The notes under the pieces: generated by a model
What the model saw: only the letters and a program-made list of their open reading frames with translations
Databases searched by the model: none
What the model was told of the DNA's origin: nothing
Shown: positions 56,977 through 63,435 of the stretch, in pieces
How the letters are laid out: each line of letters starts with the position of its first letter
Numbering within the stretch: the stretch's first letter is position 1
Assembly (NCBI GenBank): GCA_903832665.1
Contig: CAILCG010000019.1
Span: 96,770-160,769 of the forward strand
From: an uncultured Methanomicrobiales archaeon
Lineage (GTDB): Archaea; Halobacteriota; Methanomicrobia; Methanomicrobiales; Methanospirillaceae
Length of the DNA: 64,000 nucleotides
Direction: 5' to 3'
Made by a program: the position numbers and the translations under genes

Positions 56977-59082
56977 TCAGCGATCATCCCGGCTGCACCG
57001 GCGCCCGTGGAACTCTTCCCAGCAGATATGCCGGCAGATATTGCCCACCGCCTTGAACGCATCCTCCAGGTCCGGGAAGTTGGGGATACCGGAGTCCCTC
57101 AGGATCCTCAACGGGGTCTTCATGGAATCGCCCCCGATCATGCACCCGACGATCATCTTCTGCGTGCTCTTGGAGAACCGGACCAGCTCGTTTGCCACCC
57201 GGATCGGGTCCGAGATGGCTGATGGGACGGCAATCACGAAGGCGATATCCCAGAGCTCTTGGTTCCGGATCATGACATCGAACGTCCGGGCAAACCGGTC
57301 TGCGCTCGCATCTCCCACCATGTCGATTGGGTTGCGCCGGTTCCAGTCAACGGGCAGGATTGCATCGAGCTCCTTGATTACAATCGGGGGCAATTCTATC
57401 ATCTCGATGCCCATCATCTCTGCGTAATCCGATGACAAAACCGCAAAACCGCCGGCATTGCTGATCACGATCGCACGGATCCCTTTCGGGTACCCTTCCG
57501 ATGAGAGGAGTTCAGCGGTCTGGAACGCTTCCCGCATCGATCGTGCGGGTATAACCCCGGACTGCCAGAACGCCGCCTGGTACACCTCGTAGCTTCCCGC
57601 GAGGGAACCCGTGTGGGATGCGGCCGTCATCTGTCCGATCTTCGAAGAGCCCGCCTTGATAGCAACCACCGGCATCTTCGGCGTCACCTGACGCACAATC
57701 TCCATGAACCGCCTGCCGTTCCGGATCTGCTCGACATACATGATGATCGCTTTTGTTGCGGGATCATCAGCAGCAAAATGAATGTAATCCTCAAACGTGA
57801 GATCCGCCTGGTTCCCCACGCTGATCACTTCGGAAAAACCAATCTCTTCGGGCAGGCTCCAGTCCACCATGGTCGTGATGATCGCCCCGCTCTGGGACAA
57901 GAAGGCAAGATTTCCGGCTTTAGGGGAGACCGGGTCGAAGGTGGTGTTGATGCCCTGGTGCGGGAACATGAGGCCGAGGCAGTTGGGACCCATGACCCGT
58001 ACGCCGTACTGCCGGGCAATGGTGACGACCTGCTCTTCGAGTTCGGCCCCGGCCTCCCCGCTCTCCCGGAATCCCGATGATATAATCACCACGAGCGGGA
58101 TTCCTTTCTTACCCGCCTCCTCCACGATCGACGGAACGACCCGGGCCGGGACAACGACCACCGCTACATCGACAGGTCCGGGAATGGAAGTAAGGGACGG
58201 AAAAGTGGTGCGGCCAAGGATGGATGTGTGTTTCGGGTTTACCGGGTAGAGCGTTCCGGCAAACGAGAGGAGATTGCGGAGGACCGCATACCCAACCTTG
58301 TTGGGTTCTGCCGATGCACCGATAAGGGCGATCGATTTGATGTTGAGCAGTTCCCGGGGAAGGGGACGCGAGGGTTCAATGATCACCGGCACGGCGGCGC
58401 TGTCAGTATAGAACCGGGCATCCACGGCACAAACCCCGTGCTCGTAGAGAGAGACCGGGTTGATATCGAATTCCACGATATCGGTACTCTCCATGAAGAA
58501 GCGGGCAACCATATCGATGAGATTGACCAGCGCCTCCCGGTCCCGGGGAGGGTCGTTGCGAAATCCCCTGATGAGCCGGTACCCGTTCAGCTCGTGGATC
58601 ATCGCGCTGATGTCGGTCTTGGTGATGGGGAGTACCCGGATGGATACATCCCGTATCAGTTCGACCAGGGTCCCTCCCATCCCGATCGTGATCACTTTTC
58701 CAAAGGCCGGATCGATCCTTCCGCCAATGATGATCTCGAGACCCTTTTCGAGCTGCTGCTCGACCATGATCCCGTCGATCGTTGCCGCTGGGTCGAACGC
58801 CCGGACATTACTGAGGATCTTGTCATACGCGCCACGCAGGGTTTCTATGTCCCGGATGCCGGTGATCACCCCCCCGGCGTCACTTTTGTGCACGACCTGG
58901 GGCGAGACAACTTTCAGTACCAGGGGAAAGCCGGTGATATCAGCAGCCGCAACCACTTCCGTGATGGTGGTGGCGAGGGCATACCGGGGAACCGGGACGC
59001 CAATCTTCTGTAACAGTTCATACCCCTGTGCCTCGGAAATACGCTCGCGTGACATGGCTCCACTCCTATCAGATGGATACAT
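56977..59082 (-). CDS. ADP-forming acyl-CoA synthetase, beta (ATP-grasp) then alpha (CoA-binding) fused
   Basis: SEAQGYELLQKIGVPVPRYALA...VVHKSDAGGV then IKSIALIGASAEPNKVGYAVLRNLL, GPNCLGLMF, LAFLSQSGAI, SNAGGFAVLSSD. Confidence 0.9.
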   Translation of the reverse strand: MYPSDRSGAMSRERISEAQGYELLQKIGVPVPRYALATTITEVVAAADITGFPLVLKVVSPQVVHKSDAGGVITGIRDIETLRGAYDKILSNVRAFDPAATIDGIMVEQQLEKGLEIIIGGRIDPAFGKVITIGMGGTLVELIRDVSIRVLPITKTDISAMIHELNGYRLIRGFRNDPPRDREALVNLIDMVARFFMESTDIVEFDINPVSLYEHGVCAVDARFYTDSAAVPVIIEPSRPLPRELLNIKSIALIGASAEPNKVGYAVLRNLLSFAGTLYPVNPKHTSILGRTTFPSLTSIPGPVDVAVVVVPARVVPSIVEEAGKKGIPLVVIISSGFRESGEAGAELEEQVVTIARQYGVRVMGPNCLGLMFPHQGINTTFDPVSPKAGNLAFLSQSGAIITTMVDWSLPEEIGFSEVISVGNQADLTFEDYIHFAADDPATKAIIMYVEQIRNGRRFMEIVRQVTPKMPVVAIKAGSSKIGQMTAASHTGSLAGSYEVYQAAFWQSGVIPARSMREAFQTAELLSSEGYPKGIRAIVISNAGGFAVLSSDYAEMMGIEMIELPPIVIKELDAILPVDWNRRNPIDMVGDASADRFARTFDVMIRNQELWDIAFVIAVPSAISDPIRVANELVRFSKSTQKMIVGCMIGGDSMKTPLRILRDSGIPNFPDLEDAFKAVGNICRHICWEEFHGRRCSRDDR

Positions 59083-59121: not shown

Positions 59122-60234
59122 TTACCGTACCCCGTACGGCTGGTTTTTCTGCAGGCATGCCGCCATATCTGACAGGATGGGAACGATCTCTCCCTCTCTC
59201 TCAACGCGAACTCGCATGAGTTCGGCAAGACTCCCTTCGGTGATCCGCTGCCGGATTACCGGGAGATACCGGCGTTCATCATCGGTTGCATGCCGCCACG
59301 CGATCTCATACAACTTCAGGAGTTCTGGCCTGAGTCCCCGGGTGCCGTCACGGATTGCAGTTTCGGTGAGTGCCAGCAGTGCCCCTGCCTCGGTCTCGAC
59401 CGGCAGGGACCTGCACCGGAGAAGGGAGCGGACGAAGGCACAGACTGCCATGTCCGAGTGGATGCATTCCTGTTCGTCAAGCGCCTTGATCTCCAGGCAT
59501 TTTCTTGAGAACCGGATGATCACCCCGCTCGAATTCAGCCATTCCTCGCAGAGGATACCGGCATCCCGCTCACGCAGTTGGGCAAAGATCCCTTCCTGGA
59601 TCGCATGGTAATCCTCTACCGTCCCGATCATATCCGGGATGATCCCGTGGCAGATCTCCGGTATCTCCTCCTGGTTCTTCCGGTAGTAGAGGAGACGGTT
59701 GTCCATCGAACCGGTCAATCTTCCCTCCACCATGGGTGAGGAAGCGGTAATCGCGATCAGGTACGGGAGCAGGGAGCAGAGACGGTTATACCTCATCACC
59801 AGGTCTTTCCGGCTCCGGTACGAGAGATTGATCTGGAGGGCCTGGATGTTCAGCCAGCCGTGCTGCCGGATGTTGAAGAGCCGGTCATAGACTTCGTAAT
59901 ATTCTCCTTCGTCATGGTCCCAGACCGCAGTCTGGTCCAGCCGCAGGGTCGGATGCATGCCAAGCCCCAGCAGCCGGTACCGGTCGGGAAAGATCCGGTA
60001 AAATTTCTTTATACCTTCGGTAAGCTGGGCTTCCAGGGCCCCGAGATTGTCGGCATGATTCCGGGGAATGATCTCGAGCACCGTCTTCTGGAGTTCCTTG
60101 CCCAGCTTCACCTCCCCAAAGAGGATCTCGCTCTCGTACCGCCCGCAGATTGACCGGAGGATCTCGTCCGAGACCGGCAGGGGATTGAACCCGTGATCAT
60201 TGATGGAGTACTCGTGCTCGGTGCCAATCGTCAT
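59122..60234 (-). CDS. GCS2-like carboxylate-amine ligase
   Basis: MTIGTEHEYSINDHGFNPLPVSDEIL; GKELQKTVLEIIPRN; LGLGMHPTL; INLSYRS; ITASSPMVEGRLTGSMDNRLLYY. Confidence 0.8.
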   Translation of the reverse strand: MTIGTEHEYSINDHGFNPLPVSDEILRSICGRYESEILFGEVKLGKELQKTVLEIIPRNHADNLGALEAQLTEGIKKFYRIFPDRYRLLGLGMHPTLRLDQTAVWDHDEGEYYEVYDRLFNIRQHGWLNIQALQINLSYRSRKDLVMRYNRLCSLLPYLIAITASSPMVEGRLTGSMDNRLLYYRKNQEEIPEICHGIIPDMIGTVEDYHAIQEGIFAQLRERDAGILCEEWLNSSGVIIRFSRKCLEIKALDEQECIHSDMAVCAFVRSLLRCRSLPVETEAGALLALTETAIRDGTRGLRPELLKLYEIAWRHATDDERRYLPVIRQRITEGSLAELMRVRVEREGEIVPILSDMAACLQKNQPYGVR

Positions 60235-60243
60235 GATGCAAAG

Positions 60244-60726
60244 CTACCGGGCCCGCGGAATCTCTCCTACTTTATCCGTTTCGGGTTCCTCGATCGCACA
60301 GATCACTGCAAGTTCTTCTTCCGTCAGGTTCTTCACCAGGTGCGTGATGCTCTGCACTGCCAGCTCATACTGCTGCCGGTACGCTTCCGGGATCTCTTTT
60401 AGCAGGCCGACAATCGGACAGATCCGCTCGTGCTTGAGGTAGAGTGCGATCCGGTCGCCGTTCATATCAAAGGTGAACGGGCCGGACCGGCAGGTCTCGG
60501 GTTTGAAGGCATGGATAGAGCATTTGCCATTTTTGGAAAGAACGCATTCCCCGTTCGCCCGAACTTTCAGTCTCCGGTACCCGACCGTTTCAAACATATC
60601 CGGAGAGACCCCGGCATCGGTGAGCCATTGGTAACACGCGGCAGAGACCGGCGGATGGGCCTCATCGCAGCAGTGGCCCCCGCATTCCATACAGATCGTT
60701 TCAGCTCTCAATAACCAGTTTTCCAT
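60244..60726 (-). CDS. YkgJ-like cysteine-cluster (putative metal/Fe-S) protein
   Basis: ICMECGGHCCDEAHPPV; CVLSKNGKCSIHAFKPETCRSGPF. Confidence 0.82.
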   Translation of the reverse strand: MENWLLRAETICMECGGHCCDEAHPPVSAACYQWLTDAGVSPDMFETVGYRRLKVRANGECVLSKNGKCSIHAFKPETCRSGPFTFDMNGDRIALYLKHERICPIVGLLKEIPEAYRQQYELAVQSITHLVKNLTEEELAVICAIEEPETDKVGEIPRAR

Positions 60727-60732
60727 AAAAAA

Positions 60733-61605
60733 TCACGCCGCAAAAAGGTTTTCTATAATCATCTCGAAGACCCGGGGATAACAGTCGTCCTCCCCGCTCT
60801 CGATCGACGGGTTGTCATTGACTTCAATCACGTATGCATCCTCGTTGTTGTTCTTGATATCCACGCCATACAGTCCCCGGCCGATCGCATTGCCGGCATC
60901 GATTCCCAGCTGGATCACGTGCGGGGGGACGACCTCCGGCGGAACACTCTCCACCCCGCAGTACACGATATGACCATTGACCGAGGCCTGGATCTTGAAC
61001 GTGACCGAAGGGATCGTGTACTTGCAGGCATAGAGGAGCCCGCCATCCAGCACCCCGATCCTCCAGTCATACTTGCTCTCCACGTACTGCTGGACGACAA
61101 TCCAGTCCGAGAGCTTGATGAAGCGGTGGGCGACCTTAAAGAAATCAGCAATATCATTCACTTTCTCGACCCTCATCGAGAAAGAAGTCGAGGGTTCCTT
61201 CACCACCAGGGGCGTGCCGAGTTCATCGAAGAGCTGCGTCACCCGCTCGACCGTCAGCTCCTCCTTGGGTAAGAAGACCGTCTTCGGGAGCGAGACCTTC
61301 TCCTTGATCAGCCGGGAATACATGTTGATCTTGTCTGAGCAGCACCGGATCGAGTCCGGGTCATCGAGCACCGGGATCCCATGGAACCGTGCCATCTGGG
61401 CCGCAAAGTACGTGATATTCAGCGGATCTGTCCGGGCCCGGATAAAGAGGGCATCCATCTTCCGGATCTTGTGGATATCGACCGGGAAGATAAATTTCGC
61501 TGTATGCCCGAGCGTCTCGGCCACATCCCGGCACCGGATCAGGGCATTGAGCTGCTCCGAGTTTGAGAGGGTCTTCCGGTCTACAAAGATCCCGAGCTGG
61601 CTCAT
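60733..61605 (-). CDS. RimK-like ATP-grasp ligase
   Basis: DDPDSIRCCSDKINMYSRLIKEKVSLPKTVFL; LGTPLVVKEPSTSFS; GLYGVDIKNNNEDAYVIEVNDNPSIESGEDD. Confidence 0.88.
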   Translation of the reverse strand: MSQLGIFVDRKTLSNSEQLNALIRCRDVAETLGHTAKFIFPVDIHKIRKMDALFIRARTDPLNITYFAAQMARFHGIPVLDDPDSIRCCSDKINMYSRLIKEKVSLPKTVFLPKEELTVERVTQLFDELGTPLVVKEPSTSFSMRVEKVNDIADFFKVAHRFIKLSDWIVVQQYVESKYDWRIGVLDGGLLYACKYTIPSVTFKIQASVNGHIVYCGVESVPPEVVPPHVIQLGIDAGNAIGRGLYGVDIKNNNEDAYVIEVNDNPSIESGEDDCYPRVFEMIIENLFAA

Positions 61606-62453
61606 AGGAACTCCTGGTGGCAGAGGTGTGCTTCCAGCAGCGAGCGTTCGGCCTCCGTGAGATGGGAATACCGGGTGGAGGAGATGGACGAGAGGGCATA
61701 GCGTTCACCGTTTCGCACCATCACCAGCTGCATGAGCGGAATGGAGAAGAGTGCATACACCTTCTCTGCCAGCTCTGCGACCGCATCCTTCTGCCCGATG
61801 GTCTTTCCGAAAATTGCGGTACACTGGCAGATATCGGCACCTTCGTCGAGTTTCTGGTAACAGAACGGGTACTTTCCCTTGTTGGTGATATGCTTCACCG
61901 CCTCTTTTGCCGTCTCGCTGTCACTGGCGATGATGAACTCTGAGGTGGTGGCGAAATAGTTGATCCCGTACAGGATCGCCGGGAGGGGGACGTAGCCCTG
62001 GGAGATCTCCCATGCACAGACCGGTATGCCGGCAAGCTCTGCCCGTTCAAGGGAGATGGGCACGACAAATGCATCGATCATTGCACCGGTGGAGGGGAGG
62101 ACCTGCTTTCCTTCCATCTCCATCCGGAGGACCGTATAATAGGAGCCGGTTTTGTAGGAATAATCCTCGCTGATGAGATAGAAACACTCGCCGCGCCGGA
62201 GCATGTACAGCGAATCTTTGTACAGGGTATGGTTCTTCCTGCCGGGGGTTTTTGCCGGAGATTTTATGGATTGACCGGGTGACGACACCGGCGCCGGGTG
62301 CAGTGGTGCTGTCAGGGGGGTGACATCCGGTGCCACGATCGCTGAACCTGCGGTTTGCGTACCGGCTATGGTTTCCGGAAGAGGGGGGTGACCCCCACTA
62401 TCGTTCATAAGCCCATCAGCCTGCCGGAAGAGATGGGATAAAAAACCGGGCAC
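61602..62453 (-). CDS. RLAN-like (RimK-ligase-associated N-terminal) protein, stand-alone
   Basis: ECFYLISEDYSYKTGSYYTVLRMEMEGKQVLPSTGAMIDAF; start/stop overlap with the RimK-like ORF; possible alternative downstream start. Confidence 0.65.
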   Translation of the reverse strand: MPGFLSHLFRQADGLMNDSGGHPPLPETIAGTQTAGSAIVAPDVTPLTAPLHPAPVSSPGQSIKSPAKTPGRKNHTLYKDSLYMLRRGECFYLISEDYSYKTGSYYTVLRMEMEGKQVLPSTGAMIDAFVVPISLERAELAGIPVCAWEISQGYVPLPAILYGINYFATTSEFIIASDSETAKEAVKHITNKGKYPFCYQKLDEGADICQCTAIFGKTIGQKDAVAELAEKVYALFSIPLMQLVMVRNGERYALSSISSTRYSHLTEAERSLLEAHLCHQEFL

Positions 62454-62880: not shown

Positions 62881-63435
62881 ATGCATATTCCCACTCCCGA
62901 AGAACTTCGTTCGCGCCGCGAATCCCTTGGCCTCAAACAGACCGAACTCGCCCGCCGGGCCGGCATCAGCCAGTCCATGGTGGCGCGGATCGAAGCAGGT
63001 AATGTGGATCCCCGCATCAGTACGCTCAACAAGATCATCGTGGTGCTCAACAGTGCCGAGCCCAAGAAGATCAAGGCCGTGCAGATCATGCACATGCCCG
63101 TTCTCTCGGTCCAGCCACAGGATGCGATCACCCGGGCGGTCGAGATCTTTGAGAAGAACAATATCTCGCAGCTGCCGGTCATTGAACGGGGAGTCCCGGT
63201 CGGCTGCATATCCGAGACGGTCATTGTAAAGGCGATTGAGCAGCAGCGCCTGCACAAGACCCACCTCTTTGTGGTGCGGGACTTCATGGAGCCCGGGTTT
63301 CCCACTGTTCCTCCCGATATGGATGTGGAGACGGTGATCAATATTCTCCAGCAGAATCACGCGGTGCTGGTGGTGGAGGGCCGGATTGTACGTGGTGTGA
63401 TCACCAAACATGACCTGATCTCGCTCATTAACTGA
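62881..63435 (+). CDS. XRE-type HTH plus CBS-pair regulator
   Basis: LRSRRESLGLKQTELARRAGISQSMVARIEAGNVDPRISTLNKI; VLSVQPQDAITRAVEIFEKNNISQLPVIERGVPVG; RGVITKHDLI. Confidence 0.93.
   Translation: MHIPTPEELRSRRESLGLKQTELARRAGISQSMVARIEAGNVDPRISTLNKIIVVLNSAEPKKIKAVQIMHMPVLSVQPQDAITRAVEIFEKNNISQLPVIERGVPVGCISETVIVKAIEQQRLHKTHLFVVRDFMEPGFPTVPPDMDVETVINILQQNHAVLVVEGRIVRGVITKHDLISLIN

Follow-up and report, generated by a model that had tools for sequence, protein, structure and literature searches.

A co-conserved archaeal operon with two predicted ligases, a putative degenerate ATP-grasp subunit and a cysteine-rich protein

The window analysed here, i.e. a whole stretch of 64,000 nt of archaeal DNA, contains four tightly packed minus-strand genes at 59122-62408 that encode an RLAN protein, a RimK-type ATP-grasp ligase, a CxxCxxCC protein and a GCS2 protein. 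We estimate a probability of about one half that the products of this operon are a heteromeric ATP-grasp amide ligase, a gamma-glutamyl ligase and a protein that binds a metal or an Fe-S cluster, which together would yield a gamma-glutamyl peptide-like metabolite. On this reading, four genes that had been unexplained would belong to a single system of globally important methanogens. The features of the operon and its surroundings are:

61602-62408, minus strand: RLAN protein (PF14401, 9.6e-12), a stand-alone protein that looks like a degenerate ATP-grasp without catalytic residues
60733-61605, minus strand: RimK-type ATP-grasp ligase with apparently intact catalytic residues (TIGR00768, 9e-18; PF08443, 1.7e-9; alignments A2 and A6)
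60244-60726, minus strand: CxxCxxCC (YkgJ-type) protein (PF03692, 9.5e-10; alignment A4), in the following the Cys protein
59122-60234, minus strand: GCS2-type gamma-glutamyl (carboxylate-amine) ligase (PF04107, 7.9e-34; alignment A3)
56977-59082, minus strand: ADP-forming acyl-CoA synthetase, downstream of the operon (Pfam)
62881-63435, plus strand: HTH-CBS regulator, divergent to the operon (Pfam, synteny)

Layout of the operon and selection on its genes

The end of the RLAN gene (61602) is joined to the start of the ATP-grasp gene (61605) by an ATGA overlap, and gaps of 6 bp and 9 bp precede the genes for the Cys protein and GCS2, respectively. An earlier note on this DNA had described the tight packing and had called the proteins RLAN-like, RimK-like, GCS2-like and a Cys-cluster protein, with YkgJ among the families to be searched. 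The packing was confirmed, with a gene order that is kept across families, and the assignments hold, as all four proteins exceed their Pfam cut-offs (for RLAN 45 bits compared with 25). The RLAN gene probably starts with the ATG at 62408, because most homologues start with “MN..” at this position; a GTG at 62453, an alternative but less likely start, is probably too far upstream. For pairs with computable dS, the dN/dS values are 0.05-0.22 for the ATP-grasp, Cys protein and GCS2 genes and 0.19-0.29 for the RLAN gene, and purifying selection acts on all four genes.

Concerning the flanking genes, the acyl-CoA synthetase is kept beside the operon in Methanoregula only; it does not adjoin it in Methanothrix, Archaeoglobus and Methanocella, and is probably outside the system. 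Synteny shows the HTH-CBS regulator to be a conserved neighbour in Methanoregula.

Distribution and co-conservation in archaea and bacteria

Scanning GTDB genomes, we obtained 48 loci, which belong to Methanoregula, Methanolinea and Methanothrix, and the gene order is the same in nearly all of them; the synteny that the earlier note proposed to look at is thus seen in these three genera. The order is also preserved between genera and families, and the arrangement is therefore not due to chance. All 75 loci whose flanks are long enough to tell have RLAN directly beside the ATP-grasp, including those of Methanothrix, Methanocella and Archaeoglobus. A further 66-locus count, limited to loci with sufficient sequence downstream, places GCS2 near the ATP-grasp in 58 and the Cys protein in 54.

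Of 296 Halobacteriota genomes, which are not phylogenetically independent, 46 from 21 genera have the ATP-grasp, 40 from 16 genera give a strong match to GCS2, and 38 from 15 genera have the Cys protein. The sets are strictly nested, i.e. genomes with the Cys protein lie within those with GCS2, and these within those with the ATP-grasp. The ATP-grasp tree agrees with the families. The ATP-grasp occurs without GCS2 and the Cys protein in one genome of the f3 family, one f32 genome and a group of four genomes that we take to match Methanocella, as its two complete members do. Of the four genes, Methanocella and f32 contain just the core pair of RLAN and ATP-grasp, and two modules with separate products are thus conceivable. 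In the f3 genus g21 the Cys protein is missing, and a degenerate GCS2 has neither GxExE nor the QHGW region. The nesting hints at a dependence of GCS2 on the core pair and of the Cys protein on GCS2. The four-gene unit proposed earlier is seen in most loci, while its core stands alone in Methanocella. There, the pair lies beside a ribosomal run (S19e, PDCD5, L31e/eIF6 and FtsY, assigned by sequence; loci L140-L142), and at a further locus, L143, the core pair is near a fibrillarin gene, which was recognised by sequence and not by family search.

In some Archaeoglobaceae GCS2 is on a separate contig (G167, G187 and G252), and all three genes are still kept. Conversely, all three are missing from G073 and G081 although relatives of the same genus have them, and in G113 (Methanoregula SKADARSKE-2; L070 / L135) RLAN, ATP-grasp and GCS2 carry frameshifts, an apparent case of pseudogene decay or assembly error. 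The nesting, which spans unlinked loci, and the joint loss speak for a functional link between the genes, despite the non-independence of the counts. The possibility, raised with the original proposal, that the genes are not co-conserved is contradicted by the nesting and by the constant RLAN-ATP-grasp adjacency. G207, presumably A. fulgidus, is operon-positive. The system is thus not specific to methanogens, and its presence in a cultured model archaeon means that the product can be sought directly.

Bacterial relatives were compared using plasmid records. In Legionella adelaidensis the genes for a fused RLAN-RimK protein, for GCS2 and for an N-formylglutamate amidohydrolase follow one another with overlaps, and in Azospirillum a GNAT-C39 peptidase gene overlaps the gene for fused RLAN-RimK; the fusion in bacteria that the earlier note had mentioned was thus found in both. 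A P. aeruginosa plasmid has RLAN-RimK without the GCS2, amidohydrolase or GNAT-C39 peptidase partners. A GNAT domain fused to a papain-like peptidase is usual beside bacterial RLAN-RimK proteins, but not universal, and the bacterial loci match the Pfam and Iyer description. The archaeal operons resemble the RLAN-RimK neighbourhoods (PF14401) in that RLAN adjoins a RimK-like ligase and that GCS2 is nearby, as it is beside the Legionella fusion; GCS2 and a candidate metal-sulphur protein, the nearby partners expected of an RLAN-RimK system, are both found in the archaeal operon. They differ from the bacterial loci in having a separate and longer RLAN and a Cys protein, and inspection of archaeal loci revealed no GNAT-peptidase close to the operon. 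This general gene combination has reportedly been predicted already, by Iyer et al. 2009, and the system is therefore not wholly undescribed; searches of the literature turned up no paper that deals with it. What appears to be new is the split form in archaea and the origin of RLAN.

RLAN as a putative dead ATP-grasp and the motifs of its partners

RLAN has been described as an uncharacterised alpha+beta domain. The AlphaFold model of the operon protein (pLDDT 93, pTM 0.88) has its best Foldseek matches in the PDB among RimK, ArgX, LysX and D-Ala ligases, with E-values from 5e-9 and TMq values of 0.62-0.64. A profile of RLAN and one of the partner ATP-grasp, both from a subset of Archaeoglobi and Methanocella, match with a score of 37.8 and a probability of 58%, pairing YYVSxHAExxG of RLAN with YVVSRxAExxG of the ATP-grasp. 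The maximum over 150 column shuffles is 24.7, and reversed and unrelated profiles score 13.5 to 16.6. Profiles pooled from all RLANs, as well as wider profiles, do not match the ATP-grasp, which indicates extreme divergence, so that the homology is seen at the fold level and in this single profile match from the subset. In alignment A1, with a register inferred from the order of elements, RLAN has no counterpart to the Lys in VVKEP, the Asp in GVDIK or the ExN pair. As judged from the model and the alignment, RLAN therefore looks like a degenerate ATP-grasp without ATP- and metal-binding residues. The earlier description as a stand-alone member of the RLAN family stands, whereas a reading as an unrelated domain does not. 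We know of no report of an ATP-grasp origin for RLAN. Accounting for this domain of unexplained origin as a pseudo-ATP-grasp subunit would extend to the bacterial RLAN-RimK proteins.

In the partner ATP-grasp, K136, Q172, R182, D249, E261 and N263 are invariant (alignments A2 and A6), and the Lys, Asp and ExN ligands are invariant across 26 sequences, bacteria included. The nearest solved sequences are RimK, ArgX and LysX, with which the protein shares the ATP-grasp fold and the catalytic residues; it differs from them in scoring below the NCBIfam cut-offs (for LysX 50.4 bits compared with 275.6, and also far under the S6 ligase cut-off), in a presumably obligate dead partner, and, according to our reading of A2, in the apparent replacement of the FRxN..GG-type acceptor motif. 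Methanothrix ATP-grasps (L044-L067) have a C-terminal tail of roughly 50 residues that ends in a semi-conserved YKIDF.

GCS2 has intact GxExE and QHGWxNIQxxQxN motifs, which are kept across archaea and in part in Legionella (A3). The GxExE and QxN motifs are shared with the plant GCL and YbdK ligases; in contrast to these, the operon protein lies below every NCBIfam equivalog cut-off, the best match being the YbdK-family model TIGR02050 with 35.9 bits compared with 176.4. The proposal of an amidoligase system in the earlier note is upheld. In the Cys protein, seven cysteines are invariant (C12, C15, C19, C20, C61, C69 and C79) and C103 is nearly so (A4). Its model matched no PDB fold, so that its metal is a guess. 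The CX4CX3CC cluster of the methyltransferase FliB binds [4Fe-4S] (PMC8598068), and the similar cluster makes Fe-S binding by the Cys protein plausible; the likeness concerns the motif type and need not extend to homology or function.

Proposed reaction scheme and alternatives

In the scheme that we favour, the RimK-type subunit would use ATP to activate a carboxylate and then form the amide. It would pair with RLAN, seen as a catalytically dead version of this fold, which would probably hold or orient the acceptor. GCS2 would act on the same precursor or product and form a gamma-glutamyl amide there, and the Cys protein, carrying a metal or Fe-S cluster, may act last or protect a thiol. The most likely product would be a short gamma-glutamyl peptide-like metabolite and none of the known methanogen cofactors. 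A heteromer is favoured because of the constant adjacency of RLAN and ATP-grasp, their fusion in bacteria, the ATP-grasp fold of RLAN and the profile homology. One system is favoured because of the strict nesting, the joint absence within genera and the joint decay in G113, and the run of RLAN-RimK, GCS2 and amidohydrolase in Legionella argues in the same direction. A bolder version, which we put forward tentatively, is that RLAN arose as a duplicated dead ATP-grasp and is an obligate pseudoenzyme subunit, and that the four genes make a new gamma-glutamyl peptide or thiol common to Methanothrix, Methanoregula and Archaeoglobus.

The main rival, which we regard as rather unlikely, is protein modification, i.e. 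that RLAN and the RimK-type ligase jointly extend a ribosomal or carrier protein by residues at its C-terminus. E. coli RimK acts on S6, and ArgX and LysX act on LysW; these enzymes are also the closest folds to RLAN. The S19e, PDCD5, eIF6 and FtsY-like genes beside the Methanocella pair, the fibrillarin gene near L143 and the possible turnover hydrolase of the Legionella locus would fit such a role, but the ribosomal neighbourhood is not kept outside Methanocella and L143, the C-terminus of the Cys protein is not conserved, which speaks against a role as a LysW-like carrier, and a search next to the operon found no conserved small precursor ORF.

It is improbable that the ligases tailor cofactors by glutamylating methanofuran, F420 or methanopterin, e.g. 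to form tatiopterin in Methanomicrobiales. The enzymes for the polyglutamate side chain of methanofuran are stated to be unidentified (PMC8141765), which would leave room for such a function, as would the observation that Methanoregula and f3 genomes contain no MptN-like ligase other than the operon ATP-grasp; in Methanoregula no further RimK-clade ligase was found either. However, the operon is patchy in genera and families, most of the methanogens that depend on these cofactors lack it, and Legionella likewise has RLAN-RimK and GCS2; patchiness and bacterial occurrence make the explanation less likely. Methanotrichaceae, including Methanothrix, have a separate MptN (about 355 bits) besides the operon ATP-grasp. 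This coexistence, together with scores of 51.2 bits against the MptN model (cut-off 350) and 27.7 bits against the CofF model (cut-off 300), rules out that the ATP-grasp is a known cofactor ligase, the second objection considered in the earlier note. PF08443 matches a second protein of the own genome, whose sequence identifies it as pyruvate carboxylase subunit A.

A glutathione-like low-molecular-weight thiol, a special case of the favoured metabolite in which GCS2 makes gamma-Glu-Cys and the ATP-grasp is GshB-like, has a similarly small chance: of the solved structures, plant GCL comes closest to GCS2, the partner protein is Cys-rich and the hosts are anaerobic, but GCS2 is far under every GCL cut-off and the system is present in Legionella, which is expected to have ordinary glutathione.

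Two neighbouring candidates were rejected as additional members of the favoured gamma-glutamyl system. An ORF upstream of RLAN that is conserved in Methanothrix was discarded as a precursor peptide; it shows no third-position excess (0.088/0.053/0.079) and overlaps a GGTGAT ribosome-binding site. In Archaeoglobaceae and the f3 family (L102-L107 and L129-L134), the operon lies next to the gene for a CitMHS/ArsB-like permease, which in several archaeoglobal loci runs into the start of GCS2. The permease was not accepted as a fifth member: the f3-type permease occurs in 101 of 120 genomes of the order, and the two permeases are about 33% alike. The CitMHS permease of the own genome (L138:6778-7995) is broken by a stop or frameshift. 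Many Methanothrix loci (L045-L059) have a DUF255-like thioredoxin-domain protein, assigned by sequence, upstream of the operon, and in f3 (L130-L132) the operon is near the phosphate-uptake genes pstCAB, phoU and pit, likewise recognised by sequence.
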